NCBI GenBank assembly: GCA_947631115.1
Contig: CANRKB010000013.1
Span: 1 to 49,073 of the forward strand
Origin: an uncultured Clostridia bacterium
GTDB taxonomy: Bacteria; Bacillota; Clostridia; Oscillospirales; Ruminococcaceae
Direction of reading: 5' to 3'
Length of the DNA: 49,073 bases
The notes below the pieces were generated by a model, which worked only from the letters and a program-made list of their open reading frames with translations, was not told where the DNA came from and did not search any database. This document shows positions 419 to 47,741 of the stretch, in pieces. The position numbers were made by a program, and so were the translations under genes. How positions within the stretch are numbered: the stretch's first letter is position 1; each line of letters begins with the position of its first letter.

Positions 419-697
419 TTTTCCGTTTCAAATGCAAGCATTTGAAACGGAAAATTGGGGAAAACTCTTGTTTTCCCCAAACCCTTTAGCGCTGGCTTGC
501 GCCGTTTCGCGGCTTCGCCGCGACCAGAGGGGAAAAATTTTTTGAAAAAAATTTTTCCCCTCTGGACTCCCCTTTCAAAAAACTTTTGCGCCGCCGCCCG
601 TTTTGTGGCTTTGATTTTTACGTTGTTCGCCGCTCTGAACAGTTTCTAGCCTCTAGCTTCTAGCCTCTAGCCTCTAGCCCTAACCTCTTACCTCTAC
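419..697 (+). repeat. Family A repeat, copy A2, with heptamer array
   Basis: H1 at 420-453 has arms TTTCCGTTTCAAATGC/GCATTTGAAACGGAAA. H2 has TTGGGGAAAAC/GTTTTCCCCAA ends. H3 is replaced by a CGCGGCTTCGCCGCG hairpin. H4 follows (CCAGAGGGG/CCCCTCTGG). The right end, about 643-697, is a 7-bp array: TTTCTAG, CCTCTAG, CTTCTAG, CCTCTAG, CCTCTAG, CCCTAAC, CTCTTAC, CTCTACA. Any reading frames here are repeat sequence, not genes. Confidence 0.9.
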
Positions 698-700
698 AAA

Positions 701-727
701 GCGGGGAGGACCATAGACCCTCCCCGC
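701..727 (-). terminator. Possible terminator downstream of the ammonium transporter
   Basis: A 9-bp stem GCGGGGAGG/CCTCCCCGC lies about 90 bases beyond the transporter stop codon. The T-tract is short on the minus strand (TTTGT) and somewhat better on the plus strand (TATTTTATTT), so direction and efficiency are uncertain. Confidence 0.4.
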
Positions 728-816
728 ATATTTTATTTCGTCCCGACTATTGCCGAGGGAAACTCTGTCATGTCCTACACATTCTCCGACAATGCTGCCG
801 TATTATAATTTGATAT

Positions 817-2613
817 TTATTCGTCCTGAAGCGCGTCATAGCCGCTTTCGCCCGTTCTTATCTTGATAACGTCGGCTACGTCATAGACAAAGATCTTTCC
901 GTCGCCGATGTTGCCCGTGTAAAGAACCTCTTTCGCCGTTTCTACAACCGTCTCAACAGGAACCTTGCATACAACTATCTCCATCTTTATCTTCGGCAGC
1001 AGGTGCGTTTCAACAGGAACGCCACGGTACATCTCCGTAGAGCCTTTCTGCATTCCGCAGCCGAGAACGTTCGTTACCGTCATACCCGTAATGCCTATCT
1101 TGGACATCGCGTTCTTCAGAGCCTCAAAGCGATCCTGCTTTGTAAGAATAACAACTTTCGTCATCGTTACGCTGCTGTCGGTAGGAACATATTTCTTATG
1201 TACAACAGGTACAGCCTGTTCTGTTGAAGCAACTTTTTCGAGAGTGTCGACTTCTTTTTCCTTGCCCGTAGAGGAAACTTCGACTTGCATAGAGGGTACA
1301 AAGTCCGCATATGCCGCGGGCAGACCGTGTTCCGTAGAGTCAAGTCCGACAACTTCCTCGTGACGTGAAACTCTGAGACCAACAGTCTTTTTGAGAAGCA
1401 GGAACGTCAGGAATATCGTTACACCTGTCCAAGCCAGAACCGATACAACTCCGAGCGCCTGAACGCCGAGCTGCTCCCAGCCGCCTCCGTAAAACAGACC
1501 GCGCATTTTCGCACTCGGATCATGAAGCGCCGCTACGCCGCCGTTCTGTCCGTTTCCTGTCGCAAACAATCCGACCGCCAGCGAACCCCAGATGCCGTTG
1601 CAGAAGTGAACCGCTACAGCGCCGACAGGGTCGTCAACTTTAAGTTTGTAGTCGAGCAGCCAAACGCCGAAGCATACCAGAAATCCCGATACAAGACCGA
1701 TTATGAATGAACCGAGCGCGTCTGTATCCGCACAAGGCGCCGTAATAGCAACAAGTCCCGCAAGCGAAGCGTTTAAGCACATCGAAACATCGGGTTTTCC
1801 GTGCTTTATCCAGGTAAATACCATCGTCGTGCAGGTAGCTACCGCAGGGGCAATCGTTGTCGTAAGGAAGATGTTAGCGAGGTATTCTACATTAGAAGCC
1901 GCCGCGCCGTTAAATCCGTACCAGCCGAACCAGAGGATAAATACGCCCAGAGCGCCGAGCGTCATCGAGTGACCGAGAATTGCGCGTGGCTTTCCGTCTT
2001 TGTCAAACTTTCCGATACGCGGTCCGACCATTGCCGCGCCGATAAGAGCGCACATACCGCCGACCATGTGAATTGCCGTTGAACCCGCGAAATCAACAAA
2101 GCCCATTTGCGCGAGCCAGCCGCCGCCCCAGATCCAGTGAGCCTCTATCGGGTAGATAACCGCGCTTATAATTCCCGAATAGATACAGTAAGTAAGGAAC
2201 TTTGTACGTTCCGCCATAGCGCCCGAAACTATCGTAGCCGCCGTTGCGCAGAAGACAAGGTTGAATACAAATTCCGCACATCTGTCAAAATTGCTGAAGT
2301 TTGAAATAATATCAAGCGTCGGTATTCCGACAAGCCCGAAGAGCGCGTCCTCGCCGAGCATAAGCCCAAAGCCGAGGAAGATGAAAACGACAGTGCCTAT
2401 ACAGAAATCCATCAGGTTTTTCATTATGATGTTTCCTGCGTTCTTGGCTCTTGTCATACCTGTTTCGACCATTGCGAAACCGCACTGCATAAAGAATACA
2501 AGCGCCGCGCCTATAAGATACCATATACCGTTTCCGTCGCCGACGTTAAACATTTCGGCGTCGACGACTTCTTGAACGCCCGCTTCCGAGAGCGTTGCAA
2601 GATACTCTACCAT
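817..2613 (-). CDS. Ammonium transporter with fused C-terminal P-II regulatory domain
   Basis: The protein has 598 residues. Residues about 25-430 form an Amt/MEP channel with an N-terminal extension and multiple membrane spans; the segment around MQCGFAMVETG is typical of the family. After a polar linker, residues 482-598 form a complete P-II (GlnB/GlnK) domain, recognised from TKVVILTKQDRFEALKNAM, the T-loop MQKGSTEMYRG and the nucleotide-binding signature TGNIGDGKIFVYDVADVI. Most bacteria encode the channel and GlnK separately, so here the channel carries its own gate. The T-loop Tyr equivalent to GlnB Tyr46 is present (residue 529). The position of the uridylylated Tyr51 is Val (about residue 534). 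The role is NH4+/NH3 uptake at the plasma membrane, gated by ADP/ATP and 2-oxoglutarate. The gene is transcribed alone from a consensus promoter. Confidence 0.95.
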   Translation of the reverse strand: MVEYLATLSEAGVQEVVDAEMFNVGDGNGIWYLIGAALVFFMQCGFAMVETGMTRAKNAGNIIMKNLMDFCIGTVVFIFLGFGLMLGEDALFGLVGIPTLDIISNFSNFDRCAEFVFNLVFCATAATIVSGAMAERTKFLTYCIYSGIISAVIYPIEAHWIWGGGWLAQMGFVDFAGSTAIHMVGGMCALIGAAMVGPRIGKFDKDGKPRAILGHSMTLGALGVFILWFGWYGFNGAAASNVEYLANIFLTTTIAPAVATCTTMVFTWIKHGKPDVSMCLNASLAGLVAITAPCADTDALGSFIIGLVSGFLVCFGVWLLDYKLKVDDPVGAVAVHFCNGIWGSLAVGLFATGNGQNGGVAALHDPSAKMRGLFYGGGWEQLGVQALGVVSVLAWTGVTIFLTFLLLKKTVGLRVSRHEEVVGLDSTEHGLPAAYADFVPSMQVEVSSTGKEKEVDTLEKVASTEQAVPVVHKKYVPTDSSVTMTKVVILTKQDRFEALKNAMSKIGITGMTVTNVLGCGMQKGSTEMYRGVPVETHLLPKIKMEIVVCKVPVETVVETAKEVLYTGNIGDGKIFVYDVADVIKIRTGESGYDALQDE

Positions 2614-2643
2614 AAATACCGCTCCTTTTTGATAAAATAAATA

Positions 2644-2688
2644 GGGAACTTAGACGGAAAACGTTTTGAATTTCCGTTCTAAGCTCCC
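2644..2688 (-). promoter_or_regulatory. Leader hairpin of the amt-P-II gene, possible attenuator
   Basis: The transcript would begin around 2696 and immediately fold into a stem GGGAGCTTAGAACGGAAA paired with TTTCCGTCTAAGTTCCC, followed on the minus strand by TATTTATTTTATC and then the ribosome binding site AAAGGAG. The stem plus U-rich tail resembles an attenuator or an mRNA-stabilising 5' hairpin. No known riboswitch is recognised. Confidence 0.55.
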
Positions 2689-2702
2689 TTGCTTATGTCA
2701 TT

Positions 2703-2731
2703 ATTATAATCATCAAAATTAAATTTGTCAA
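2703..2731 (-). promoter_or_regulatory. Consensus sigma-A promoter for the amt-P-II gene
   Basis: On the minus strand TTGACA (2731-2726), a 17-base spacer and TATAAT (2708-2703) match the housekeeping consensus at every base. Confidence 0.85.
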
Positions 2732-2810
2732 TAGAATTTTGCAAGTTTTTTATTTTAAACTTGCATTTTGTATCATTTTACAAAAAAGTGTAAAAATGTT
2801 TACTTCTCTA

Positions 2811-2840
2811 TTGCATTTTTTACAAAAACCTTATTATATC
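2811..2840 (+). promoter_or_regulatory. Weak promoter candidate for the small gene at 2978
   Basis: TTGCAT at 2811 and TTATAT/TATATC at 2834-2840 have 17-18 base spacing. The whole 2732-2960 interval is very A/T-rich and also holds an inverted repeat ATTTTACA/TGTAAAAAT near 2776-2797. I see no other feature there. Confidence 0.3.
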
Positions 2841-9147: not shown

Positions 9148-9428
9148 AAAACCTCTCTATAAGATTGCCGTTTCAAAGCACGGCTTTGAAACGGCAATGC
9201 GGGGAAAACTCTTGTTTTCCCCGCACCCTTTAGCGCTATTGAGCGTTTGCGGTGGCTTTGCCCCCGCGCCCCCACCAAAGGGGAAAAATTTTTTGAAAAA
9301 AATTTTTCCCCTTTGGAATCCCTTTTCAAAAAACTTTCGTGCGCCCGCCCGAGCGGTGGTTTGAATGGAAAAGCACTTTCCCGCTCAAAACAGTTTCTAG
9401 CCTCTAGTCTCTAATTTCTAGCCTCTAG
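9148..9428 (+). repeat. Family A repeat, copy A3
   Basis: H1 at 9164-9198 has arms ATTGCCGTTTCAAAGC/GCTTTGAAACGGCAAT. H2 has GCGGGGAAAAC/GTTTTCCCCGC. H4 is CCAAAGGGG/CCCCTTTGG. The linker contains CCCGCCCGAGCGG. The end at 9394-9428 is exactly five 7-bp units: TTTCTAG, CCTCTAG, TCTCTAA, TTTCTAG, CCTCTAG. Here H4 carries an AA/TT pair where A1 carries AG/CT, a paired change. Confidence 0.9.
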
Positions 9429-10083: not shown

Positions 10084-10183
10084 GCTTGTGTGCCTTTAAT
10101 TTAAAAACAATCTAAATTACGTCCGCGAAGCGGACACATACTACTGCATACTGTACCATGTACACTGTATACTGCCAACAGCG
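10084..10183. repeat. Family B repeat fragment, copy B1
   Basis: This is the right half of family B: TGTGTGCCT, then AAAACAATCTAAA, then a hairpin GTCCGCGAAGCGGAC, then a 7-bp array (CATACTA, CTGCATA, CTGTACC, ATGTACA, CTGTATA, CTGCCAA). It ends about 14 bases from the stop codon of the phosphatase gene. The rest of 10018-10083 holds only the flavin reductase binding site and a small GCGC palindrome. Confidence 0.8.
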
Positions 10184-18904: not shown

Positions 18905-18974
18905 GATATATTTTGTATTTTTGTGAAAATTGCAAATAAATACATAACTAACTTACGTGTTGTAAAGGGCGCGG

Positions 18975-19845
18975 GGCATGACAAGCATTTGACAAATAGC
19001 ACAAATCGGACTTTGTCTAATGTAAGCAAAAAAACTGCCGGCACGGCAGGAAGCTTTTGTGCAAAATCGCCGATTACTCTAAATGCCAAAAAACTTTATC
19101 TCCAAAAAGCTCCCCGAATTTCTTACCTCTTACGTCTTATCTCTTACCTCTGACAGGGCGCGCCCGCGCCCCGCACTTTCCCCCTTCCCCTTTTAGAGAT
19201 AAGAAATTAGAGGTAAGAGGTTAGAGTTTGAGATGAGAGGTTATTCGATTTTCGTAAGTATTCCAGCCTCCGGCTTCTTACATCTTACCTCTGTCAAAAA
19301 GCACAAAACGGACTTTGTCTAATGTGAAGTAAAAAACGGCACGCGCGACAGGAACCTTTTGTGCAAAATTGCCGATTGCTCTAAAAGCCTAAATACTTTA
19401 TCTCCAAAAAGCTCCCCGAAATTCTTACCTCTTACATCTTATCTCTTACCTCTGACAGGGCGCGCCCGCGCCCCGCACTTTCCCCCTTCCCCCTCGGGGA
19501 AGGGGGTAGGGGGTTAGGGCGAGTAAAGGCTATTGAGAAAAATAGCATTTGACAAATAGCACAAATCGGACTTTGTCTATTATGAAGTAAAAAACGTTTG
19601 GCGGTAAAGGAAGCTTTTGTGCAAAATCGCCGTATTCGGTAATTGACTAATGACACTCGCACGAAATCGCGCTCTTTGTTCTCAAACCAACTCGCACGCC
19701 CGATTTACACGTTGTAAAGGGGGCGAAGCCACCGAGGCGGGGCGCGGGGCATGACAAGCATTTGACAAATAGCACAAATCGGACTTTGTCTATTATGAAG
19801 TAAAAAACGTTTGGCGGTAAAGGAAGCTTTTGTGCAAAACGCTGA
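18975..19845 (+). repeat. Cluster of four family C repeat units with embedded D module
   Basis: Four related cores lie at about 18985-19075, 19293-19377, 19546-19633 and 19759-19840. Each contains AGCACAAAtCGGACTTTGTC, then TAATGTRAAGTAAAAAA (variable), and ends GCTTTTGTGCAAAAT. The pairs GACAAA/TTTGTC and GCACAAA/TTTTGTGC can fold. Units 1 and 2 are followed by CTTTATCTCCAAAAAGCTCC and a 7-bp array (CTCTTAC, GTCTTAT, CTCTTAC, CTCTGAC), then a G/C-rich stretch. A reverse-sense array (GAGATAA, GAAATTA, GAGGTAA, GAGGTTA) is at about 19195-19225. A family D hairpin lies at about 19480-19510. The interval holds no convincing gene. A weak promoter for dgt may lie near 19865-19895. Confidence 0.8.
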
Positions 19846-19952: not shown

Positions 19953-20963
19953 ATGCTTCCACGCGAAAGGACCGAGCAAAACGAGAAAATTTTACTTAGC
20001 GAGTATGCCTGCCGCGCGGATATGTCAAAGGGGCGCGCTTTTTATGAAAAGCCCTGCGATTTGCGGACGGATTTCCAGCGCGACCGCGACCGCATAATCC
20101 ACTGTAACTCCTTTCGCAGGCTCAAGCGAAAAACGCAGGTCTTTCTTGATCCTCTCGGCGACCACTATCGAACGCGCCTTACGCATACCCTTGAAGTCAG
20201 CCAGATAGCAAGAACGGTTTCGAGAGCGCTCGGGCTGAATGAAGACCTGACGGAAGCTATAGCCCTAGGTCACGATCTCGGGCATACTCCGTTCGGGCAT
20301 GACGGCGAGAGAATTTTAAACGCCCTTATGAAAACGGGCTTCAGGCATAATCTCCAGAGCCGCCGCGTCTGCGAGAGAATTGAAAAAGACGGAAGCGGTC
20401 TTAATCTGACGTTCGAGGTCTTGGACGGCATAGCCGCCCACACGGGAAAGGAACTTCCCGAAACGCGCGAGGGAATGGTCGTCAGATTTTGCGACAAGAT
20501 AGCTTACATAAACCACGACATCGAGGACGCGATACGCGGGGGAGTCATAACCGAAGATATGCTCCCCGAATTTCCGATAAAGGTTCTCGGAAAAACAAAA
20601 TCCGCGAGAATATCGGCTCTTGTAAACAGCCTTGTGCAGAACAGCGGCGACGAGATAAAAATGGATTATACCACCCGAAAAGCCCACGACGAGCTGAGGG
20701 ATTTTATGTTTGAAAAGGTCTACCGTTCTTCGAGGACTGTTGCCGAAAAAGGAAAAGCCGAGTTTATCATTGAGTATCTGTTCAGGTATTTTTCCGAAAA
20801 CAAAGACAAGCTTCCGAGGCTGTACCTTGAAATTTCCGAAGAGGACGGTCTTGAAAGAGCGGTCGCCGATTTCATCAGCGGAATGACCGACGACTATGCC
20901 GTCGATTACTTCACTTCGCTTTGCGTGCCGAAAAACTGGAAAAACGGATATATAGACAGTTGA
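19953..20963 (+). CDS. dgt: Deoxyguanosinetriphosphate triphosphohydrolase-like HD protein
   Basis: The start ATG at 19953 (MLPRERTEQNE) has AGGGGAG at about 19937-19943; an upstream ATG at 19923 has no binding site. The 336-residue protein is an HD-domain dNTPase. It has FHCNSFRRLKRKTQVF-like (HCNSFRRLKRKTQVF), DHYRTRLTHTLEVSQIART (first metal His), IALGHDLGHTPFGHDGE (the HD pair) and FCDKIAYINHDIEDA. It hydrolyses dNTPs to deoxynucleosides and triphosphate, or acts as a related nucleotidase. The last codons, IDS plus TGA, are read from the first 7-bp units of the family B element downstream. It probably leads the dnaG-rpoD operon. Confidence 0.93.
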   Translation: MLPRERTEQNEKILLSEYACRADMSKGRAFYEKPCDLRTDFQRDRDRIIHCNSFRRLKRKTQVFLDPLGDHYRTRLTHTLEVSQIARTVSRALGLNEDLTEAIALGHDLGHTPFGHDGERILNALMKTGFRHNLQSRRVCERIEKDGSGLNLTFEVLDGIAAHTGKELPETREGMVVRFCDKIAYINHDIEDAIRGGVITEDMLPEFPIKVLGKTKSARISALVNSLVQNSGDEIKMDYTTRKAHDELRDFMFEKVYRSSRTVAEKGKAEFIIEYLFRYFSENKDKLPRLYLEISEEDGLERAVADFISGMTDDYAVDYFTSLCVPKNWKNGYIDS

Positions 20964-21170
20964 CAGTGTAAAGTGGACAGTATTCAGTTATTGTATCCGC
21001 CTTGCGGCGGATAATATTAGATTGTTATCGGACTGAAACGTTTTGGAGCGCTGCCGTAAAAGATTTGCTCGTGTGCCTATTGACTTAAAACAATCTAAAT
21101 CCTGTCCGCCGCAAGGCGGACACCGAAACTGTACACTGTACATTGTACACTGTAAACTGACAACTGACGA
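20957..21170 (+). repeat. Family B repeat, complete copy B2, between dgt and dnaG
   Basis: Order: a 7-bp array (GTTGACA, GTGTAAA, GTGGACA, GTATTCA); a hairpin GTCCGCC/GGCGGAC-type; AGATTGTT; a core containing CGGACTGAAACG and CTCGTGTGCCTATTGACTTA; AACAATCT; a second hairpin GTCCGCCGCAAGGCGGAC; and a second array (AACTGTA, CACTGTA, CATTGTA, CACTGTA, AACTGAC, AACTGAC, GACAGGA). The two ends are roughly mirror-symmetric. The first array contains the dgt stop codon and the last unit runs into the dnaG ribosome binding site. Confidence 0.85.
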
Positions 21171-21177
21171 CAGGAGA

Positions 21178-25817: not shown

Positions 25818-25894
25818 GAAAGGCAATGATTCTTTATAAGAAATAGGTTTCGGCGTTTATTTTTTTGCTTTTTATTATGACAAAAGGAGTTATA

Positions 25895-28477
25895 ATGAGG
25901 ACTATCCCGGATAATATAAGAAAATTTTTGTTTCAGAACAAAATTCATTTTATAGCTTTTATACTGCCTCCTGTTTTTCTTCTGGCGGCTTATGCGCTCG
26001 TCGGAATATACCCGTTTGGAGATAAGTCCGTTCTTGCAATTGATTTCAACAGCCAGTACGTTTATTTTTACGACTACCTGCGCAGCGTTTTGTCCGGTCA
26101 GGAAAGCCTTTTCTACAACTGGAGCGGTTCGCCCTCGGGCGGTTTTTTCGGTACTTTCGCTTATTATATCGCAAGCCCCTTTGTCTTTTTGGTTTTACTG
26201 TTTCCGAAAGAGAACATAACGGAAGGTCTTCTTTGTATGCTCCTTGCAAAATCGGCTTGCACGGGACTTACGATGTCGTTCTTTTTAAGAAAGCATAGAA
26301 AGTATTCCGAATTTACTTCTTTGTTGTTTTCGCTTGTATATGCGATGAGCGGATATGCTGTCGCAAACACGATAAATCCTATGTGGCTCGACGCGGTCAT
26401 AGCGCTTCCGCTTATAGCGATGGGTCTTGAGCGCATCAGCAGAAAGCGCGGCTTTATACTTTATACCGTTACGCTCTTTCTGGCGATTGTTGCGAATTAT
26501 TATATCGGATATATGTTGTGCGCTTTTTCGGGGCTTTATTTCATCTTTCTTATGGCGTCGAGAAAAGTTACCGCCCGAAAAAAGAAGATCGGTCTTTTCG
26601 CGCTTTCGTCCGCTTCAGCCGTCATGATGTCGTGTATAATGATCGTTCCCGCGGTGTTTTCTCTTATGAACGGAAAGCTTGACGACGGATTTGACAAGAT
26701 AGAATTCAGCGAATGTTTCGGTTTCATGGACTGGTTTTTTGAATTATTCCCCACCGTCTATGAAACTCAGAAAGGCGGCGGACTTCCGTTTATCTACTGC
26801 GGAATGATAACGGTCATTTTTGTGGTCGCATATTTTGTCTGCAAAAAATTTTCGGCTCGTGAAAGAATAGCCAACGGCGTTTTGTGCTTTTTCCTCCTTT
26901 TCTCAATGTACTTCAGACCTCTCAACAATCTTTGGCACGGCGGACGCGAGCCTGTATGGTTTGAAAACAGATTTTCTTTTCTTTTGATATTTGTTCTGAT
27001 AATAATCGCCGCAAAGGCTTTTGAAAATATAAAGCTCATAGATCTGAGGGACATAGGCGGGTCTATTCTGGTGCTTATAGGTCTGTTCTTTATAGGTATC
27101 GGCTTCAGGACGAGAGGATTTAAGAACGAGGATTATTTCGGGCTTATTTCAATAGCTTTCCTTACAATAGCGGAAGTCTGCGCAATCCTTATAAAAACCA
27201 AACCGAAAGTTCTCGTGCGGGGAGCGGTCATAACGGTCGTTTGCGCGGAACTGTTTATAAATATGCAAAGCTATATTTTTGATATAAACGAAGACTTCGG
27301 CTATCAAGAGCGCGACAATTATGCGCCGACGATGAGCGAACTCAGAGAATACGTAAGCGAGGTAAAGGAAAAAGACAGCGGTTTTTACCGCTTTGAGAAA
27401 ACGTTCCACCGCTCATTTAACGATAATATCGGCGCGGGAGTATACGGAATTTCGTTTTCTTCGAGCGTTTACAACTTAAACGTTCTCGAGCTTTTGAGGC
27501 ATATGGGCGTCGGACAGTATAACTGGCACTCGCAGTATGTCGGTTCCACAATGCTGACGGACGATATTTTCGGCATAAGGTATATCCTGTCAAAGAAAGA
27601 TTCTTTAGTGCCTTATTCAGAAAAAGACGGCATTATATATGAAAACTTAGACGCGCTTCCCGTTGCTTTTCTCGCGGACGCGGGCGTAATAGGCAGCGAG
27701 ATAGACGAAGAAGACGATCCTTTTACATTGCAGGAAAGTTTCGCTTCGGCGCTTACGGGAGAAAAAGAAAAGATATTCACCCGTATAAAGGACGCTAAAT
27801 GCACCTTAAACAACGTTTCAAGAATCGACAACCATTATAAAGAGATCACCAAGATCTTTCAGAGTTCTGTTATCTATACAATTACAGTGCCGCAGAGCGG
27901 AGCGGTTTACGCTTATTTCCCGACCGACCGCGAATATACCTGCGGTCTTTATGTAAACGGGAAATTCGTGAAGAATTATTTCAACGACTTCGATCTCAGC
28001 AGCGCTTATATCGGCAATTACAAAAAGGGAGACAAAGTGACCGTAGAACTCAAGCTCTTATCGGAAGAAGCGGAATTTGAAGAACCCGTGTTCTGCGTTT
28101 GCGACAACTCGGCGCTCGAAGCGTTCAACGCTAAAATAGCGCACAACGAGGTAAAGAAAACGGGAACTTGTTCGCTTGAGCTTACTTTAAGCGCCGAAAA
28201 AGACGGAGCGATGTTTACTTCCATACCGTATGAAAAGGGCTGGAGCGCGTATGTAGACGGAAAGAAAAGCGAAATTAAAACGGGCGTGAACGGCGCGTTT
28301 ATGTGCGTGGAAATTCCCCGCGGCGAACATACGATAGAGCTTGTATACGTGCCGCAAGGATTTTATACAGGCTTGATAATTTCGATTTGCGGAGCGGCGT
28401 TATTCGCGGGAATGATAGTGTTCAGAGTAGTTAAAAGAAGAAAGAGCGTAACCGAAAAATCAAAGGCTGAGAGATAA
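25895..28477 (+). CDS. YfhO family multi-spanning membrane protein (paralogue 1)
   Basis: I start at ATG 25895 (MRTIPDNIRKF), preceded by AAAAGGAG. The 860-residue protein has about 12 membrane spans in the first 480 residues, including FIAFILPPVFLLAAYALVGI, then a soluble domain, and a last span near the C-terminus. Family marks are SVLAIDFNSQYVYFYDYLRS, FYNWSGSPSGGFFGTFAYY and, late, PYEKGWSAYVDGKKSEI. YfhO proteins are GT-C-like. B. subtilis and Listeria relatives are implicated in glycosylation of lipoteichoic acid, so a sugar transfer outside the membrane is likely, but substrate is unknown. The gene converges with a paralogue. Confidence 0.92.
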   Translation: MRTIPDNIRKFLFQNKIHFIAFILPPVFLLAAYALVGIYPFGDKSVLAIDFNSQYVYFYDYLRSVLSGQESLFYNWSGSPSGGFFGTFAYYIASPFVFLVLLFPKENITEGLLCMLLAKSACTGLTMSFFLRKHRKYSEFTSLLFSLVYAMSGYAVANTINPMWLDAVIALPLIAMGLERISRKRGFILYTVTLFLAIVANYYIGYMLCAFSGLYFIFLMASRKVTARKKKIGLFALSSASAVMMSCIMIVPAVFSLMNGKLDDGFDKIEFSECFGFMDWFFELFPTVYETQKGGGLPFIYCGMITVIFVVAYFVCKKFSARERIANGVLCFFLLFSMYFRPLNNLWHGGREPVWFENRFSFLLIFVLIIIAAKAFENIKLIDLRDIGGSILVLIGLFFIGIGFRTRGFKNEDYFGLISIAFLTIAEVCAILIKTKPKVLVRGAVITVVCAELFINMQSYIFDINEDFGYQERDNYAPTMSELREYVSEVKEKDSGFYRFEKTFHRSFNDNIGAGVYGISFSSSVYNLNVLELLRHMGVGQYNWHSQYVGSTMLTDDIFGIRYILSKKDSLVPYSEKDGIIYENLDALPVAFLADAGVIGSEIDEEDDPFTLQESFASALTGEKEKIFTRIKDAKCTLNNVSRIDNHYKEITKIFQSSVIYTITVPQSGAVYAYFPTDREYTCGLYVNGKFVKNYFNDFDLSSAYIGNYKKGDKVTVELKLLSEEAEFEEPVFCVCDNSALEAFNAKIAHNEVKKTGTCSLELTLSAEKDGAMFTSIPYEKGWSAYVDGKKSEIKTGVNGAFMCVEIPRGEHTIELVYVPQGFYTGLIISICGAALFAGMIVFRVVKRRKSVTEKSKAER

Positions 28478-28502
28478 AAATACGGAGAGCTTTGGATAAA
28501 AT

Positions 28503-28578
28503 AAAAGAGGCATAGAACTCGGAATTTGAAGCGGATGTTTTCCGCGCTGAACAAATTCCGGCGTCTATGCCTCTTTTT
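28503..28578. terminator. Long bidirectional terminator between the yfhO paralogues
   Basis: Outer stem AAAAGAGGCATAGA / TCTATGCCTCTTTT and inner stem GGAATTTG/CAAATTCC enclose a GCGGA/TCCGC cap. T-runs exist on the plus strand and A-runs at the other end serve the minus strand. Confidence 0.85.
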
Positions 28579-28590
28579 TCTAATTGCCGA

Positions 28591-31143
28591 TTACTTTTTC
28601 CTTTTTTTCATTGTCCTAAATATTATCATCACTGCGAGCAGAGCCGCTCCGCAGAGCGAAACTATCATTCCGATCTCAAATCCCTCGGGCAGGAAGACCA
28701 GCTTTATTGTATGTTCTCCCTCGGGAATTTCCACGCACATAAACGCGCCGTTCACGCCCGTTTTAATTTCGCTTTTCTTTCCGTCTACATACGCGCTCCA
28801 GCCCTTTTCATACGGTATGGAAGTAAACAGCGCGCTCTCCTCTTTTGCGTTTACCGTGACTTCAAGCGTGCAGCTGTCGGCTTTCTTTACATTGTTATGC
28901 GGAATTTTCTCGTTGAACGCTTCGAGCGCCGAGCTGTCGCAAACGCAGAACACGGGTTCTTTAAATTCCGCTTCGTCCGAATACAGCCTTATCTCAACGC
29001 TTATTTCTTCTCCCTTTGAGAAGTTGCCTAGAAAGGCGGTGTTAAGGTCAAAGCCGTTGAAATAATTCCTGAGATACTTCCCGTTTACGTAAAGCGCGCA
29101 GGTGTATTCACGGTCGGTCGGGATATAGGCGTAGACCGCTCCGCTTTTCGGCGCGGCGAATTTATACGCGACAAAACCGTCGGAATTGAGGTTTGTTTTG
29201 GTTAGATGGTTGCCGCTTCTTGTGACATTTTTCGACGAGTATTCGACGCCTGTTATCCGCGCGAAGATCTCCTCGTCTTCCCCCGTCAGTGCCGAAGCAA
29301 TATTTTGCTGTAACGCAAAAGGATCGCCGCCGTTTACTTCGCTGTTTATTACAGCTTTGTCCGCAAGAAAAGCGACAGGCAGCGCGTCGCGATTTTCATA
29401 TATTATGCCGTCGTTTTCGGTATACGGCACAAGCGCGACGTTCTTTGAGATAATATATTTTATTCCGAAAAGATCGTCGGTAAACATGGTAGAGCCGTTA
29501 TAACGCGTGTGCCAGTCGTATTGTCCGAAGCCCATTTTCTTCATAAGAAAGAGAACGTCCTTATTATAAACGCTCGAAGAAAACGAAACGCCGTATATTC
29601 CCGCGCCGATATTGTCGTTAAACTCGCGGTGGAACGTTTTTTCAACGCGGTAAAACCCGCCGTCATTTTCTTTTATACGGTCGGCGTATTCTCTGAGTTC
29701 GCTCATAAACGGCGCGTAATCTTCCCGCTTCTTATAGCCGAAATCATTGTCAATGTCCCTGATATAGCTTTGCATGTTTGTAAACAGCTCAATGCACACA
29801 AGCGCAATGACCGCGCCTTTGACAACGTTTTTCTGCTTATATTTTATAAGCAGCGCCAGCCCTCCCGCTATTGCAAGGAAAACAAGCGCGCTAAGCGCGA
29901 TATACTCGGCGTGTTTATATTCTCTTGTCTTAAAGCCGTTTGCAATAATTAGCAGTCCGAGCAATACCAAAAACGCCGCGCCTATGTGCTTTTGCCGAAT
30001 GAGCTTTATATTTTCAAAAGCCCTCGCGGCGATTATTATCAGCACAAAGATGAGGATAAACGAAAATCTGTGTTCAAACCAGACGGGCGCGCGGCCGCCG
30101 TGCCAGAGGGTATCCAGCGGCTTAAAGTACATTGAGAACATAAGAAATCCGCACAAAATGCCGTTTGATATTCTCTCGCGGAACTTAAATTTCCCGCAGA
30201 TGAAATATGCAATTACGAAAATGAGCGTAAACAGTCCGCAGTAGATAAACGGAAGCCCGTTATATCTCTGGCTGTCATAAACGGCGGGGAAGAATTTCAA
30301 AAACCCGTCCATTAAATTGAAGCTCTCGCGGAATTCTATCCTGTCAAATCCGCCGTCGAGCTTTCCGCTGAGGAGCGAAAGCACCGAGGGGATAATTATT
30401 ATTCCCGACATCAATACCGCGCTCAGGGACGAAAGCGCGAAAACGCCGACCTTACGCTTTCGCGCGGGCATTGTTCTTGACAGTATAAAATAGATGAAAT
30501 AAAGCCCCGAAAAAACGCAGAGCATATACCCCGTATAATAATTGGCGGCGATTGCAAAAAACAGCGTCAGGGTATACAGCAAAAAGCCTTGTTTTCTGCA
30601 AATGCGCTCAATGCCCATTGTAATAAGCGGAAGCGCGATTACCGCGTCGAGCCACATGGGATTTATCGTGTTTGCGGCGGCATATCCGCACATGGCGTAG
30701 ATAAGCGAAAACAACACCGAAGTAAACTCGGAATACTTGCGGTGTTTCTTAAGAAAAACGGACATAGAAAGACCCGCGCAAGCCGTTTTCGCGAGGAGCA
30801 TACAAAGAAGTCCCTCGGTTATGTTTTCTCTCGGGAACAGCAGAACGATGAGGTTAAACGGGCTTGCGAGATAATAAGCGAAAGTTCCGTAAAACCCGCC
30901 CGACGGCGAACCGCTCCAGTTGTAGAAAAGGCTTTCTTGTCCCGAGAAAACGCTGCGCAGGTAGTCAAAAAAATAAACGTACTGACTGCTGAAATCCACC
31001 GCAAGCACGGACTTTTCCCCAAACGGGAATATCCCCGCCATGGCATAAGCGGTAAGAAGAAACAGGGCAGGCAGGATAAAAGCAATAAAGTGGATCTTGT
31101 TTGCGATTAAAAATTCTTTGATGTTGTGCAGGATAGTTTTCAT
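28591..31143 (-). CDS. YfhO family multi-spanning membrane protein (paralogue 2)
   Basis: The 850-residue protein is very similar along its full length to paralogue 1. Shared segments include SVLAVDFSSQYVYFFDYLRS, FYNWSGSPSGGFYGTFAYY, TINPMWLDAVIALPLI and an almost identical C-terminal PYEKGWSAYVDGKKSEI. It has the same arrangement of about 12 N-terminal spans, soluble domain and C-terminal span. Differences cluster in the soluble domain (for example around residues 610-700), which may reflect different acceptors. AAAGGAGC precedes the ATG. Element E3 sits between its conserved promoter block and the coding start. Envelope glycosylation is an inference from family. Confidence 0.92.
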   Translation of the reverse strand: MKTILHNIKEFLIANKIHFIAFILPALFLLTAYAMAGIFPFGEKSVLAVDFSSQYVYFFDYLRSVFSGQESLFYNWSGSPSGGFYGTFAYYLASPFNLIVLLFPRENITEGLLCMLLAKTACAGLSMSVFLKKHRKYSEFTSVLFSLIYAMCGYAAANTINPMWLDAVIALPLITMGIERICRKQGFLLYTLTLFFAIAANYYTGYMLCVFSGLYFIYFILSRTMPARKRKVGVFALSSLSAVLMSGIIIIPSVLSLLSGKLDGGFDRIEFRESFNLMDGFLKFFPAVYDSQRYNGLPFIYCGLFTLIFVIAYFICGKFKFRERISNGILCGFLMFSMYFKPLDTLWHGGRAPVWFEHRFSFILIFVLIIIAARAFENIKLIRQKHIGAAFLVLLGLLIIANGFKTREYKHAEYIALSALVFLAIAGGLALLIKYKQKNVVKGAVIALVCIELFTNMQSYIRDIDNDFGYKKREDYAPFMSELREYADRIKENDGGFYRVEKTFHREFNDNIGAGIYGVSFSSSVYNKDVLFLMKKMGFGQYDWHTRYNGSTMFTDDLFGIKYIISKNVALVPYTENDGIIYENRDALPVAFLADKAVINSEVNGGDPFALQQNIASALTGEDEEIFARITGVEYSSKNVTRSGNHLTKTNLNSDGFVAYKFAAPKSGAVYAYIPTDREYTCALYVNGKYLRNYFNGFDLNTAFLGNFSKGEEISVEIRLYSDEAEFKEPVFCVCDSSALEAFNEKIPHNNVKKADSCTLEVTVNAKEESALFTSIPYEKGWSAYVDGKKSEIKTGVNGAFMCVEIPEGEHTIKLVFLPEGFEIGMIVSLCGAALLAVMIIFRTMKKRKK

Positions 31144-34683: not shown

Positions 34684-35125
34684 TTAGAGGCTAGAAGCTA
34701 GAAGCTAGAGGCTAGAAACTGTTTTGAGCGGCGAACAACGTTTGGCATCAAAGCCACACAACGGGCGGCGGCGCAAAAGTTTTTTGAAAGGGGAGAGCAG
34801 CCAGAGGCTAGACGCATTATGCGCTTTGCGCATAACGCTGCCAGAAGCTAGAGGCTAGAAACTGTTTTGAGCGGCGAACAACGTTTGGCATCAAAGCCAC
34901 ACAACGAGCGGCGGCGCAAAAGTTTTTTGAAAGGGGAGTCCAGAGGGGAAAAATTTTTTTCAAAAAATTTTTCCCCTTTGGTCGCGGCGAAGCCGCGAAA
35001 CGGCGCTAGCTAGGCGCTAAAGGGTGCGGGGAAAACAAGAGTTTTCCCCGCATTGCCGTTTCAAAGCCGTGCTTTGAAACGGCAATCCTAAAACAAGTTT
35101 TGAGCGGTAACGTGCTTTCATTTTT
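34684..35125 (-). repeat. Family A repeat, copy A5, with internal duplication and F hairpin
   Basis: Two tandem copies of the array-plus-linker part (about 34685-34800 and 34841-34940) precede one hairpin part. A family F hairpin (34813-34839) separates them. H1 is at 35052-35086. H4 is imperfect (AGAGGGG against CCCCTTT), and H3 is replaced by CGCGGCGAAGCCGCG. The arrays read GAGGCTAGAAGCTAG and similar, seven bases per unit. Confidence 0.9.
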
Positions 35126-35282: not shown

Positions 35283-35603
35283 TTCCCGCTCAAAAGTTTT
35301 TTCATACTGTAGGTTGTTCCCCGCTCAAACCCTCTCCTAGGTTTTCCGTTTCAAATGCAAGCATTTGAAACGGAAAATTGGGGAAAACTCTTGTTTTCCC
35401 CAAACCCTTTAGCGCTCGCTAACGCGACGGGGACTCCGTCCCCGTACCCCTGCCAGAGAGGAAACTTTTTTGTAAAAAAGTTTCCTCTCTGGACTCTCCT
35501 TCAAAAAACTTTCGTGCGCCCGCTCGTTAGGCGGTTTGAACGGAAAAGCACTATGCCGCTCATTACAGTTTCTAGCCCCTAGCTTCTAGCTTCTAGCCTC
35601 TAG
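35283..35603 (+). repeat. Family A repeat, copy A6
   Basis: H1 is at 35343-35376 (TTTCCGTTTCAAATGC/GCATTTGAAACGGAAA), H2 is the TTGGGG/CCCCAA version, H3 is ACGGGGAC/GTCCCCGT, and H4 is CCAGAGAGGAAAC/GTTTCCTCTCTGG. Relative to A1, both arms of H3 and H4 changed together. The array at 35569-35603 has exactly five 7-bp units (TTTCTAG, CCCCTAG, CTTCTAG, CTTCTAG, CCTCTAG). It directly abuts the promoter of the next gene. Confidence 0.9.
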
Positions 35604-35683: not shown

Positions 35684-36793
35684 ATGTCAACAGTATTCAG
35701 AGTTGAAAAAAACAAGAATTACACGGTGATGTCCAATATTCACCTTAAAGACAGAAGTCTGTCGCTTAAAGCAAAAGGCTTGCTTTCGGTTATTTTAAGC
35801 CTGCCGCCCGAGTGGGATTACACGGTCACGGGGCTTGCGCATATTGTCGCAGACGGCGCTGACAGCGTTAGAACAGCAGTCCGCGAGCTTGAAAGTTTCG
35901 GCTATATAACCCGCCGACAGGGTCGCGACGACCTCGGGCGCATGTCGGTTAACGAGTATCACGTTTACGAAGATCCGAGTCAAAACCCCGATTATTCCTG
36001 CGAAGAAAATAATTCTTCCATGTCCGAAAAGGCGGACAATATTTTTTTGGCTTCTCCGTCGACGGATAAGCCGTTGACGGAAAACCCGTCAACGGATAAT
36101 TCGTCAACGGCTACATTTAATATATTAAATACTAATAAATCAAATACTAATTCATCAATCACTCATCCTCGCGCTTCGCGCGAAAAAAAGAAATTGACGG
36201 AGAGGACGGAGGGAATGAATGATTTTCATGAAGAAAATAATTCTTTTGAGAATGAAAGAAGCGAATGGGAAGAATACTTGAACGCCATTCACGAGAATAT
36301 TGAGTATGACAGCTTCGCCGAAAAAGCTAAAGCGGACGAGCTTGTCGGAGTAATGCTGGACGTGATGTGTTCGAGAAAGGAAACGATCCGAGTAAACGGC
36401 GAGGAACTTCCCGCAGAGCAAGTAAAAAAGCGCTTTCTTGAGCTTAAGAAAGCGCATATTGAGCATGTTCTCGCAGCCCTTGAAAGCAACTCGGGCAGCG
36501 TCCGCAACATTCGCGCGTATATTATCACCGCGCTCTATAACTCTCCGACGGCGGTTTGCGGCGCCCGTTCATTTCCAAATAATTCCTATTTCCCGCATTA
36601 TGGCTCTTATTCCGCGCCCTCGGCGCAAACCGCGCCCAAAAAACCCGCTTACGCCATGGAGTCGTCGTTTGACATGGACGACATTTTCGCAAGAATTAAG
36701 GCGCGGTATAAGCGCGACGAAAACGATGACGACTGGCTGCCAAAATCTCCCAAAAAGGAAGACCTGAAGCCCAAGTATGTGCTGTTGGAATAG
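35684..36793 (+). CDS. HTH replication-initiator-like protein with DUF6017-type C-terminal region
   Basis: The 369-residue protein has an N-terminal winged-helix domain (about 1-95): YTVMSNIHLKDRSLSLKAKG, LPPEWDYTVTGLAHIVADG, RTAVRELESFGYITRRQGR. This is the form common in plasmid/ICE replication initiator A and phage-like replication proteins of Clostridia. A Ser/Thr/Asn-rich linker follows with STDKP/STDNS repeats (about 125-160). The C-terminal part resembles DUF6017 (ELVGVMLDVMCSRKETIRVN, VKKRFLELKKAHIEHVL, SVRNIRAYIITALYNSP). No relaxase, integrase or partition gene is nearby. Family A copies flank it closely on both sides. It may be a relic of a mobile element or a domesticated DNA-binding protein. 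Confidence 0.82.
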   Translation: MSTVFRVEKNKNYTVMSNIHLKDRSLSLKAKGLLSVILSLPPEWDYTVTGLAHIVADGADSVRTAVRELESFGYITRRQGRDDLGRMSVNEYHVYEDPSQNPDYSCEENNSSMSEKADNIFLASPSTDKPLTENPSTDNSSTATFNILNTNKSNTNSSITHPRASREKKKLTERTEGMNDFHEENNSFENERSEWEEYLNAIHENIEYDSFAEKAKADELVGVMLDVMCSRKETIRVNGEELPAEQVKKRFLELKKAHIEHVLAALESNSGSVRNIRAYIITALYNSPTAVCGARSFPNNSYFPHYGSYSAPSAQTAPKKPAYAMESSFDMDDIFARIKARYKRDENDDDWLPKSPKKEDLKPKYVLLE

Positions 36794-36794: not shown

Positions 36795-37118
36795 GGGCAA
36801 TCGTTGTTCCCCGCTCAAACCCTCTCCTAGGATTGCCTTTTCAAATGCTTGCATTTGAAAAGGCAATGCGGGGAAAACTCTTGTTTTCCCCAAACCCCAG
36901 GTTCAATGCCGTAGGCATTTAACCTGATGCGCTTTTGAGCGTTTGCGGGGACTCCGTCCCCGCACCCCTGCCAAAGGGGAAAAATTTTTTGAAAAAAATT
37001 TTTCCCCTCTGGACTCCCCTTTCAAAAAACTTTTGCGTCGCCGCCCGTTGTGTGGCTTGAACGGAAAAGTGCTTTGCCGCTCAAAACAGTTTCTAGCCTC
37101 TAGCTTCTAGCTTCCAGC
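36795..37118 (+). repeat. Family A repeat, copy A7, overlapping the end of the next gene
   Basis: H1 at 36832-36867 is ATTGCCTTTTCAAATGC/GCATTTGAAAAGGCAAT, where the C-G pair of other copies is T-A with both sides changed. H2 is mismatched at its base (GCGGGG against CCCCAA). An extra AGGTTCAATGCC/GGCATTTAACCT-type hairpin follows. H3 is GCGGGGAC/GTCCCCGC, and H4 is imperfect. The terminal array (TTTCTAG, CCTCTAG, CTTCTAG, CTTCCAG) overlaps the last codons of the minus-strand lipoprotein gene. Confidence 0.88.
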
Positions 37119-37627
37119 TTGCGCTGCTCCTTGAAATTGATATTCAGCGAATAAAACGGGCATTTCAGCGATATAAGCTTGCCGCTCGTGTCAGCCGTTA
37201 TCGTCACGGGCTTTTCATTAAACTCCGTTTCTACCGTAATTACCCCGTCCGAAACTATCCGATTGTCCGCGGTTATCTTCGGCAGAGTCTCCACCGCTTT
37301 TGCAATTATCTCGGGCAAAACCGTATACGTATCGTTCCCGTCTACCCCGAAACTCAGCGCCCCCAGCGTTCCGCTTAGTCCTTCTTCGTTTATCTTCAGC
37401 TTCATTCCCGCAAGCGCTTTCGGCTCGGTAAACGTAAATTCCCAGTCGTTCTCGGCATAGTATGCAATATCAGCCGCCGCTTCCAGCTTTCCGCACTTTA
37501 TCTCAGCCGAATAAGTATACCCCGCCCCGAAATCGGGCTTTGTCTGTACAAAAGGATTATTTTCCGCACACCCGCCCAGCATACAACAGCATAGCGCGAG
37601 CGCAATTATCTTCGGTGTTTTTTTCAT
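37100..37627 (-). CDS. Lipoprotein of about 175 residues, possible LolA-like fold
   Basis: The start ATG at 37627 is preceded by AAGGAGG; upstream in-frame sequence lacks a signal. MKKTPKIIALALCCCMLGGC is a lipoprotein signal peptide (LGGC, Cys20). The mature domain alternates short beta-like strands (YSAEIKCGKLEAAADIAYY, ITVETEFNEKPVTITAD) as in LolA/LppX-like lipid-binding barrels, but this assignment is weak. The final residues KLEARS and the TAG stop are encoded by 7-bp units of family A copy A7, so the native C-terminus was probably replaced or extended by repeat insertion. It is last in a four-gene minus-strand cluster. Confidence 0.75.
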   Translation of the reverse strand: MKKTPKIIALALCCCMLGGCAENNPFVQTKPDFGAGYTYSAEIKCGKLEAAADIAYYAENDWEFTFTEPKALAGMKLKINEEGLSGTLGALSFGVDGNDTYTVLPEIIAKAVETLPKITADNRIVSDGVITVETEFNEKPVTITADTSGKLISLKCPFYSLNINFKEQRKLEARS

Positions 37628-42614: not shown

Positions 42615-42712
42615 AAAGCTGTTCTTTTCAAACGCACTTTCTCTCAATAACGCTCATTCGCCCCACCCCCTTCCCCTTTCCCGAAGGGGAAGGGGGAAGT
42701 TCGGGGCGCTGC
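42615..42712 (-). repeat. Family D module, copy D4
   Basis: TTTCTCTCAATAACGCTCAT, then CACCCCCTTCCCC and a CCTTTCCC/GGGAAGG-type hairpin, then GTTCGGGGCGCTG. It joins copy A10 on the left and family B copy B3 on the right. Confidence 0.8.
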
Positions 42713-42957
42713 TGGCAGTATACAGTGGAGAGTGTACAGTATTCAGTAATGGTTGTCCACGCATTATGCCCTTCGGGCAAAACGCTACGCGGACAATATT
42801 TAGATTGTTTTAAGTCAATAGGCACACGAGCATAACTTTTACGGTAGCACTCGAAAGCGTTTCAGTCCGATGACAATCTAAATCCTACCCGCCGTTAGGC
42901 GGGTTCCTACTACCGCATACTGTACCCTGTACCCTGTCAATTGTCAACAGCGCGGCT
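42713..42957 (-). repeat. Family B repeat, copy B3, at the 3' end of the EAL gene
   Basis: This copy is inverted relative to B2. Left array: GGCAGTA, TACAGTG, GAGAGTG, TACAGTA, TTCAGTA. A family F hairpin replaces the usual hairpin (42760-42786). The core has AGATTGTTTTAAGTC, AATAGGCACACGAG, GTTTCAGTCCGATGAC and AATCTAAA. A hairpin ACCCGCC/GGCGGGT follows, then an array CGCATAC, TGTACCC, TGTACCC, TGTCAAT, TGTCAAC. The last units overlap the EAL gene's final codons. Confidence 0.85.
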
Positions 42958-44148: not shown

Positions 44149-44267
44149 AATAAACCTCCATAAAAAGTTTTAGTTATTTCCTATATTCTAACATATTTAA
44201 AAGCATTTTTGAATTACTTTTTGTTAAAAAAATGTTTTTCGTCAAAATAGCCATAATTCATTGCTGT

Positions 44268-44508
44268 TGTCAGTTGACAGTGTACAATAGACAGTAGTCA
44301 GTAATAGCGGAAAGTTTGTTTTTTTCAAACATTTTTTCTCTCAATAACGCTCACTCGCCCCAACCCCCCCGCCCCCTTCCCCGAAGGGGAAGGGGGCGTT
44401 CGGGGCGCAGGCGCGCCCTGCGACCCGCCTCGGGGGCTTCGCCCCCGAACCCCCGTCGGCAGTTGACAGCAGACAGAGGACAGTACGCAGTAATAACCGA
44501 AAGGCAAT
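44268..44508 (+). repeat. Repeat mosaic: B array fragments around family D copy D5
   Basis: A B-type array (GTTGTCA, GTTGACA, GTGTACA, ATAGACA, GTAGTCA) spans about 44268-44305. Family D follows at about 44330-44455: TTTCTCTCAATAACGCTCAC, a CCCCCTTCCCC/GGGGAAGGGGG hairpin, GGCGCAGGCGCGCC and CGGGGGC/GCCCCCG. A second B-type array (GTTGACA, GCAGACA, GAGGACA, GTACGCA) ends it. The interval 44149-44267 holds the EAL gene's upstream region, with no strong promoter found. Confidence 0.8.
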
Positions 44509-45981: not shown

Positions 45982-46013
45982 CCATAAGTACTTTGACACA
46001 AAGGGGCGGTGCG

Positions 46014-46229
46014 GTGCAGTATATAGTGTACAGTGTACAGTGTACAGTTATTGTGTCCGCCTTGCGGCGGACGATATTAAATTGTTATCGGACTTAAACG
46101 TTTTTGAGCGCAGCCGCAAGAGTTTTTCTCGTGTGCCTATTGTCTGAAAACAATCTAAATAATATCCGCGAAGCGGATACCGAAACTGTACACTGTTCAC
46201 TGTACACTCTCCACTGTATACTGTACAGC
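46014..46229 (+). repeat. Family B repeat, copy B4
   Basis: Left array: GCAGTAT, ATAGTGT, ACAGTGT, ACAGTGT, ACAGTTA. Hairpin GTCCGCC/GGCGGAC; the core has AAATTGTTATCGGACTTAAA, GAGCGCAGCCG and CTCGTGTGCCTATTG. AACAATCTAAA and hairpin ATCCGCGAAGCGGAT follow. Right array: AACTGTA, CACTGTT, CACTGTA, CACTCTC, CACTGTA, TACTGTA. It lies between the LacI-type gene and the iron-sulfur flavoprotein gene. Confidence 0.87.
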
Positions 46230-46283
46230 GTTATGCAGGATCGTGTTCCTAAAATTATAAATAACATTTGGAGGTACGACAAC

Positions 46284-46904: not shown

Positions 46905-46906
46905 AA

Positions 46907-46936
46907 TTGAAATTATTGTAAAATCGACAGTATAAA
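46907..46936 (+). promoter_or_regulatory. Promoter candidate for the ferredoxin gene
   Basis: TTGAAA (46907-46912), an 18-base spacer and TATAAA (46931-46936). The leader has TCCTTTG pairing with CAAAGGA of the ribosome binding site, a possible masking hairpin. Confidence 0.5.
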
Positions 46937-46978
46937 ACTTCCGTCCTTTGGGAAAATAACAACAAAGGAGGGATTTTA

Positions 46979-47161
46979 ATGAAAGTAACTGTTGACAGAG
47001 AGGGCTGTATCGGGTGCGGAGTATGCGCGGATATATGCCCCGAAGTTTTCCGGATTGCCGACGACGGGCTGTCGGAGGTAATAGCAAAGCCCGACGGTAA
47101 TGAGGAAAAAGTAGAAGAGGCGGCGGGGTCGTGTCCCGTTGAAGTTATCCATACGGAATAA
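46979..47161 (+). CDS. Single-cluster 4Fe-4S ferredoxin
   Basis: The 60-residue protein has Cys10-IG-Cys13-GV-Cys16 and the late Cys-Pro (SCPVE) that bind one 4Fe-4S cluster; Cys20-Pro is also present. The acidic remainder and RIADDGLSEV fit the monocluster ferredoxins of Clostridia and Thermotoga. It is a low-potential cytoplasmic electron carrier. AAAGGAGGG lies 6 nt before the ATG. It lies between the ISF-like gene and the SCP2 gene, all on one strand. Confidence 0.95.
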   Translation: MKVTVDREGCIGCGVCADICPEVFRIADDGLSEVIAKPDGNEEKVEEAAGSCPVEVIHTE

Positions 47162-47183
47162 AAAGCTGAAAGGAGCTTTAAAA

Positions 47184-47501
47184 ATGACATTTGAGGAAAT
47201 CATGACAAAGGTAAAGGAAAAGGCGAAAGAGATAGACGCGTCGAAAGCGGATTTTCTGGCGGTGCAGGTCAATCTTACGGGAGAAAACGGCGGGGTGTTT
47301 TATGTTGAAGTAAAGGACGGGAAAGTAAACGCCGAGCCGTATGAGTACAACGACAGGAGCTGCGCGATAACGATGACGCCGGAAAACTTTATGAAGTTTT
47401 TAAATGGGAAGCTTGATCCGATTCTGGCGTTTACGACGGGGAAGCTGAAAGTTGAGGGCGACGTAGGAAAAGCGCTGGAATTTTCGAAGCTTATTAAGTA
47501 G
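47184..47501 (+). CDS. SCP2 sterol-binding domain protein
   Basis: I start at ATG 47184 (MTFEEIMTKVKEKAKEIDAS), with AAAGGAG upstream. The 105-residue protein is a single SCP2 domain: FLAVQVNLTGENGGVFYVEV, CAITMTPENFMKFLNGKLDP and AFTTGKLKVEGDVGKALEF are the family pattern. Bacterial stand-alone SCP2 proteins probably bind lipids or acyl chains; the ligand is unknown. It begins 22 nt after the ferredoxin gene. Its stop TAG (47499-47501) is the first three bases of the family A heptamer array A11. Confidence 0.93.
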   Translation: MTFEEIMTKVKEKAKEIDASKADFLAVQVNLTGENGGVFYVEVKDGKVNAEPYEYNDRSCAITMTPENFMKFLNGKLDPILAFTTGKLKVEGDVGKALEFSKLIK

Positions 47502-47741
47502 AGGCTAGAGGCAAGAGGCTAGAGGCTAGAAACTGTTACGAGCGGTAAACAACCTTTCTGCTACCCGACCGCGCCGTAAGGCGCGGTATATGGGTTTCCA
47601 AAGGGCGCATTGCGCCCTTTGGTGGGGGGTGCGGGGGCAAAGCCCCCGCAATCCGCTTCAAAGGCGTGCTTTGAAACGGCAATCCTAGGAGAGGTGCAGA
47701 GCGGGGAACCACCTCAAAAGTAAAATAACTTTCGAGCGGGA
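47499..47741 (-). repeat. Family A repeat, degenerate copy A11
   Basis: Array TAGAGGC, TAGAGGC, AAGAGGC, TAGAGGC, TAGAAAC starts exactly at the SCP2 stop codon. Hairpin ACCGCGCC/GGCGCGGT, an H4 position occupied by CCAAAGGGCG/CGCCCTTTGG, and H3 GCGGGGGC/GCCCCCGC follow. H2 is absent and H1 is mismatched (GCTTCAAAG against CTTTGAAACGGC). The tail is CCTAGGAGAGGTGCAGAGCG. Confidence 0.87.

Follow-up and report, generated by a model that had tools for sequence, protein, structure and literature searches.

A seven-base period shared by unlike tandem arrays at the edges of intergenic hairpin repeats in an uncultured Clostridia bacterium

Why would intergenic repeats that differ in sequence be bounded by short tandem arrays of one and the same period? 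The question is raised by a stretch of 49,073 nucleotides from an uncultured Clostridia bacterium of the Ruminococcaceae (contig CANRKB010000013.1, assembly GCA_947631115.1), which we call the window throughout and which is contig 13 of a 60-contig, 2.06-Mb genome that is 96% complete (G000). A preliminary description of the window, made from its letters, listed nine imperfect 7-bp arrays in three repeat families (A, B and C) that it took to be unrelated. Comparison of these arrays within the genome and between related species points to turnover of whole units combined with a protected three-base core, and the explanation that we tentatively favor is that a putative factor reads this core once per heptad.

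The seven-base period and its core

Using a lag scan of the window at a fixed score over periods 4-21, with 10 Markov copies as control, we found 10 arrays of period 7 (0.0 expected) and 0-3 arrays at every other period, except for six at the harmonic 14. Tandem Repeats Finder returned the same arrays. When lag-7 identity in each of the nine listed intervals was compared with that at lags 5, 6, 8 and 9 and with 2000 Markov sequences of equal length, it lay between 0.58 and 0.83, exceeded the four other lags and was reached by 0-2 of the 2000 sequences, which upholds the period of seven for all nine; the weakest are 10134-10183 (0.58) and 20957-20993 (0.60). The two arrays that were said to hold exactly five units, 9394-9428 and 35569-35603, are both 35 bp long. 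Eight further arrays lie at 19195-19229, 19421-19457, 34685-34717, 37091-37120, 42703-42752, 42910-42950, 44264-44306 and 47499-47530.

The preliminary description also named an excess of period 7 across the genome as support, and such an excess is what we found: 20 stretches of G000 plus the window (444 kb, many stretches here and in the relatives being picked for matches to the A repeat) contain 42 such arrays, and other periods give 0-7, apart from 14 (19) and 21 (8). The A repeat itself has 88 matches in the 2.06-Mb genome, short inverted ones included. In seven arbitrarily placed stretches of G000 (140 kb), period 7 gives six arrays, period 9 four and other periods fewer. Relatives show 30 period-7 arrays in 188 kb (G031), 36 in 192 kb (G041) and 22 in 138 kb (G035), and low counts occur in G038 (two in 135 kb) and in three further members (none in 100 kb). 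Eleven stretches of relatives that were placed without reference to hits (220 kb) contain 19 arrays at period 7, eight at 14 and at most three at any other period.

The three families reduce to two unit classes, AGA (A and C) and AGT (B). In A and C, AGA recurs every 7 bp and is followed by four looser bases, and among the matches listed the two families intergrade inside single arrays; B units carry CAG or AGT and then looser bases. Unit forms include CAGTGTA, TAGARGC and TWAGARG, and AG is in phase in 133 of 139 arrays of the genus, as compared with 70.5 expected from column shuffles. Array length is modal in the AGA class, in which 79 of 171 arrays measure 31-33 bp (about 4.5 units), and AGT-class arrays have 3.5-5.5 units.

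Orthologous arrays were compared among four species that have a common gene order and about 85-95% nucleotide identity. The preliminary description had named strain-variable unit number as support; between these species, unit number differs at some loci in steps of 7 or 14. Of 51 array alignments listed, five, covering four loci, show clean internal length differences of 7 or 14 bases, one of them a 14-base difference at window position 46185 against G035. Elsewhere the gaps have lengths not divisible by seven, and the arrays otherwise match in length or differ in some other way. Counted in 15 orthologous pairs without gaps, the pre-set cores AGA and CAG mismatched at 10 of 210 positions and the other array positions at 45 of 256. 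This first count showed A, G and T to be quiet in the CAG class, and AGT then replaced CAG as the second core, which gave mismatches at 5/213 core, 50/253 non-core and 156/847 flanking positions. The core thus diverges by 2.3% (4.8% with the pre-set cores) as compared with 18.4% for the flanks, and it lies below the non-core positions in 13 of the 15 pairs and above them in one. Non-core identity is the same in place (0.761) as after a shift by one unit (0.759), which indicates that the non-core letters have been reshuffled.

Spread of the period and reading of the core

The period is not confined to the genus. At 80 dgt loci of other Clostridia (533 kb), nine arrays of period 7 occur in four or five loci; periods 4-6, 8-11 and 13 give 0-2 arrays each and periods 12, 14, 15, 18 and 21 give 3-6. 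These arrays use the units AATTCGC, AAGGGCC and ACTGAAT, and at three loci (L070, L092 and L095) period-7 arrays form inverted pairs directly 3' of the dgt relative. Across 149 genomes of the phylum, four AATT at period 7 have 292 matches in 20 genomes, as compared with nine matches in seven genomes at period 8 and 16 in seven at period 6, and for five AGT at period 7 the matches number at least 930, spread over 29 genomes, versus 302 for the reversed pattern. Five genomes picked for AATT hits each carry several unit families, with 65 arrays of period 7 in 322 kb and 0-5 at other periods, except 14 (28) and 21 (14). In five other genomes AG is in phase in 34 of 68 arrays (24.4 expected) and AC in 35 (20.0 expected), which shows that the AG core is not universal. 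Nearer to G000, an exact 17-base C-type pattern occurs in 5 of 119 genomes of the family, two of them in this genus, and 15 stretches of the family that were not picked by hit (265 kb) contain two period-7 arrays, which is not above several other periods; a control of 50 kb from E. coli contains none. The trait is patchy, and only a minority of related bacteria, scattered among the others, carry it. The combination of one period with differing unit sequences extends further than the preliminary description claimed, since members of the phylum carry AATT, AGTC, AGTTAA, AAGGGCC and other units. One locus (L272 6114-6220, in G230) runs from CAGTCAC, GAGTTAA and GAGTGAA into TTTGAAT in a single unbroken 7-bp register.

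These observations bear on the earlier proposal of slippage or a protein that reads every seventh base. Each half of it gains some support: the steps of 7 or 14 and the lack of non-core memory speak for slippage or exchange, and the fixed core fits a putative reader. In the best if still tentative account, the arrays are tandem 7-bp sites at the borders of intergenic hairpin repeats, most of them in facing orientation. The comparison between species shows that units are gained and lost in sevens at some loci and that the non-core letters are reshuffled, by slippage or by exchange between units. The core of each unit (AGA or AGT), which in this small and partly dependent sample changes far less than neighboring DNA, would be kept because a putative DNA- or RNA-binding factor, with one subunit per heptad, must recognize it. 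A length of several units would provide multivalent binding at the element edges, and the factor may act on DNA (at element ends or in the nucleoid) or on transcripts. Besides the core counts, this account is favored by the modal array length, the inward-facing pairs, the in-phase AG of the genus, the surplus of AGT over its reversed pattern in the phylum and the poor pairing of the heptad stem described below.

Several points weigh against such a factor. AGT was picked post hoc, and the CAG class alone, with its pre-set core, gives mismatches of 8/123 versus 24/153 (P 0.022). Since the same species and loci recur among the 15 pairs, these are not independent, and the P values of the core counts overstate certainty. 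Looser filters give core mismatches of 11/352 and 31/454, with 266/1515 and 408/1919 in the flanks, and conversion or replacement from a pool of core-sharing units could mimic selection. Beyond the genus, TGA, taken as control core, is likewise found with period 7, AGT being ahead in 21 genomes and TGA in 13, and a single genome (G305) supplies at least 450 of the AGT matches, at least 225 on each strand. The B alignment used below was assembled through in-phase CAG/CTG. No reader was found: for the cold-shock domain PF00313, three first-look candidates in G000 were scored and none passed, with matches in 9 of 14 control genomes as the positive control of that search, and Y1/RAYT (PF01797) is absent from G000, G031, G034, G035 and G041, being present in 9 of 43 genomes of the genus. 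Finally, cores differ between lineages, and the earlier idea of one protein that reads all of the arrays is therefore unsupported.

Because turnover in a pool of units with a common core could also protect that core, neutral conversion is kept as a near rival. The arrays would then be neutral heptamer microsatellites, in which slippage or unequal exchange favors 7-bp steps, recombination between copies keeps the consensus and nothing reads the result, a possibility that we place second. This reading accounts for array lengths that differ by 7 or 14 bases between some orthologues, for non-core letters without positional memory and for the recurrence of the period with unrelated units in other genomes. 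It also fits the greater likeness of adjacent than of distant units, which is 0.819 at distance 1 and 0.773 at distance 2 in the genus (shuffled, 0.799 and 0.797) and 0.857 at distance 1 and 0.760 at distance 5 in five other genomes (shuffled, 0.822 and 0.825). In their Discussion, Rehm et al. (2015; PMC4692102) have already proposed that the bacterial heptamer excess stems from a polymerase footprint. However, neutral units should have cores that diverge about as much as the flanks, at 18.4%, yet the cores diverge by 2.3% or, with the pre-set choice, 4.8%; modal array length and inward-facing pairs also speak against neutrality. Relatives within the genus can be aligned and together hold hundreds of arrays, for which slippage alone, conversion and site-specific reading predict different countable outcomes, and the contrast between core and flank is a direct handle on the function of seven-base repeats.

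A more specific form of the reading by a factor, which we consider doubtful, is that the putative factor polymerizes along DNA or RNA in a seven-base register, contacting three bases per step, with lineage-specific cores in scattered bacteria of the phylum and with the arrays as loading sites at the edges of hairpin elements.

The elements between the arrays

The arrays of the window and the parts of the B element between them are as follows.

643..697, minus strand: A array, AGA class (TCTAGCC on the plus strand), about 7.6 units, the last units C-like (TCTTACC)
9394..9428, minus strand: A array, five units
10134..10183, minus strand: B array, AGT class, weak
19119..19155, minus strand: C array, AGA class
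19195..19229, plus strand: C array, inverted partner facing 19421-19457
19421..19457, minus strand: C array, second copy
20957..20993, plus strand: left B array, containing the TGA stop (20961-20963) of the dgt-like gene
20994..21013, no strand: left side hairpin of the B element (TCCGC/GCGGA), with compensatory changes in 17 aligned copies
21018..21026, no strand: inner stem of the B element, 5' side, 99.3% of cells paired and almost invariant
21089..21097, no strand: inner stem of the B element, 3' side
21103..21122, no strand: right side hairpin of the B element, with compensatory changes in 17 aligned copies
21128..21171, minus strand: right B array, directly before the dnaG-like gene
34685..34717, plus strand: A array
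35569..35603, minus strand: A array, five units
37091..37120, minus strand: A array
42703..42752, plus strand: B array facing 42910-42950
42910..42950, minus strand: B array
44264..44306, plus strand: B array, no inward partner noted
46014..46050, plus strand: left B array of the second B element
46186..46229, minus strand: right B array of the second B element, 14 bases shorter in the relative G035
47499..47530, plus strand: A array whose first three bases (47499-47501) are the TAG stop of the SCP2-like gene

The B element is about 200 bp long, non-coding and enclosed by inward-facing arrays. Among B arrays that are neighbors within 400 bp, 15 pairs face inward, none outward and four in the same direction; the corresponding numbers for the AGA class are 18, 2 and 31, some of them in nested elements. 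At several loci of relatives (the orthologue of 21128-21171 in L199, and L197, L198 and L143), a palindrome of about 25 bp (GCATTGAACGCTTCGCGTGCAACGC-like) lies inside B arrays, placed as if these were its target.

An arrangement of this kind could reflect mobility. The hairpin repeats would then resemble miniature inverted-repeat transposable elements (MITEs), with the heptads at their ends as binding sites of the transposase that moves them, which we consider improbable. REPIN/RAYT elements and MITEs are short non-coding intergenic palindromic repeats, a description that these elements share. Mobility would explain why B arrays face inward 15 times to none across a non-coding body, and why one array type precedes many different bodies (among the matches listed). 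It would also explain why presence differs between species: G000, G031, G035 and G041 carry a B element between dgt and dnaG, G038 has a diverged copy of it, and G012 has a short plain spacer in its place. In addition, C elements (L140 4365-4527 and L153 4812-4967) lie in the loop region of a hairpin (CCCCTTC/GAAGGGG) whose paralogous copies are uninterrupted. On the other side, among 58 arrays without an aligned counterpart, the alignment breaks at the outer array edge in five and at the inner edge in four, both flanks are kept in two, and 47, including all 13 B arrays, have no assignment; given these numbers, we do not call the arrays transposon ends. No target duplication is defined, an automatic search for empty sites returned mostly paralogous hairpin copies and not orthologous empty sites, and no transposase was recognized in up to six of the longest frames of four large insertions, which were inspected by eye with no family search. 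Y1/RAYT is absent from the five genomes named above. We reject a RAYT origin from repetitive extragenic palindromes, since PF01797 is absent from the array-rich genomes checked, in which respect they differ from the REPIN/RAYT system.

Base pairing was evaluated in 18 B elements gathered through the middle GATTGT...ACAATC and in-phase CAG/CTG, of which 17 were aligned and one with a divergent middle was excluded. The whole elements at 20953-21178 (z -7.9) and 46014-46229 (z -9.7) fold far better than shuffles, and so does the C pair (19193-19457; z -4.3); half B elements or single arrays do not fold beyond shuffles (z -1.6 to 0.2). In the 17 aligned elements, the two side hairpins are 96.6% paired, as compared with 91.1% in shuffles, a level that none of 500 shuffles reached. 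Both sides have changed in 22 cells (6.8 in shuffles), and the covariation score is 0.251 (0.133 in shuffles). These figures are not probabilities because the shuffle control ignores relatedness. A long-range alternative pairing of the side hairpins has zero compensatory pairs in its helices. In contrast, the heptad stem is 77.2% paired, below the 80.0% of shuffles, of which 498 of 500 equal or exceed it, and the covariation score is likewise lower (0.063 versus 0.099). Pairing thus holds the side hairpins, but in the aligned register it neither holds the heptads nor accounts for their fixed core. That the paired arrays are arms of an RNA or cruciform hairpin kept for base pairing is accordingly very improbable: the folding of whole B elements and of the C pair and the drop in heptad pairing to 18-50% when the stem is slid by one to three columns are in its favor, and against it stand the heptad stem, which in the aligned register lacks covariation where the side hairpins covary, and an arm-to-arm similarity within a genome that is not above random pairing (B, 0.846 versus 0.853 +/- 0.011; AGA class, 0.573 versus 0.596 +/- 0.031).

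Known heptamer repeats and neighboring sequences

Heptameric repeats of the short tandemly repeated repetitive (STRR) type occur in filamentous cyanobacteria, and the present arrays resemble them in unit length, the one property compared. The preliminary description named heptamer repeats from that group; they are not confined to it, since passages of Rehm et al. (2015; PMC4692102) and MacGregor (2015; PMC4679880) put them in print for Xanthomonas, Beggiatoaceae and Bacteroidetes as well. Heptamer excess in bacteria is thus already known from these two sources. Rehm et al. report, in the passages concerned, that heptameric repeats are over-represented in many bacteria, that an intergenic seven-base excess has been noted since 2007 (as cited there) with its function still to be found, and that heptanucleotide repeats occur in Calothrix. 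Their GGGANTN arrays of Xanthomonas and GGGGAYT arrays of Nostoc are, as described there, like ours in having a seven-base unit with conserved and variable positions, an intergenic and genome-wide distribution, a unit number with its mode at about four, inverted pairs in some cases and length differences between close species. In contrast to those G-rich arrays, which form G-quadruplexes according to the same source, the present arrays have no G-tract in register (their profiles show AGA or CAG cores and no GGG), fall into two classes with AGA and AGT cores, and form regular inward pairs around hairpin elements.

The TAACTGA direct repeats described by MacGregor in Beggiatoaceae, cyanobacteria and Bacteroidetes are similar in that their reverse complement, TCAGTTA, carries AGT. 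They differ, in the passages of that paper that treat them, in having one fixed unit, mostly directly upstream of start codons and nearly always in direct orientation. In our arrays, units vary, many arrays form inverted pairs and several follow stop codons; the unit forms given above are not TAACTGA, and two window arrays contain the stop codon of the preceding gene. S1, cold-shock and Csr proteins are considered there as readers of TAACTGA; a cold-shock protein is rejected as reader here because PF00313 was not found in G000, which is 96% complete. Among the matches listed in one open-access library, no description of such arrays in Bacillota was found, and as far as those matches show, the new details are inward pairing around hairpin elements, conservation confined to the core, and patchy spread with lineage-specific cores.

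Ten genes that adjoin arrays match common Pfam families, among them ammonium transporter, flavin reductase, PHP and SCP2, and the window has no Rfam match at gathering score. The closest named relatives of the dgt-like gene are from an "uncultured Clostridia bacterium" (73% identity) and a Ruminococcaceae bin (72%), in a list that may omit its own record. A gene with HTH_36/DUF6017 (35684-36793) is bracketed by A-type repeats in direct orientation, with arrays at 35569-35603 and 37091-37120. Adjoining the C arrays, a 100-bp repeat with GACAAATAGCACAAATCGGACTTTGTCTA is present in four copies at 18967-19839. At 25865-31143, two large genes of 870 and 850 aa lie in facing orientation, and long inverted repeats in this region are 76-78% complementary over about 2.4 kb.

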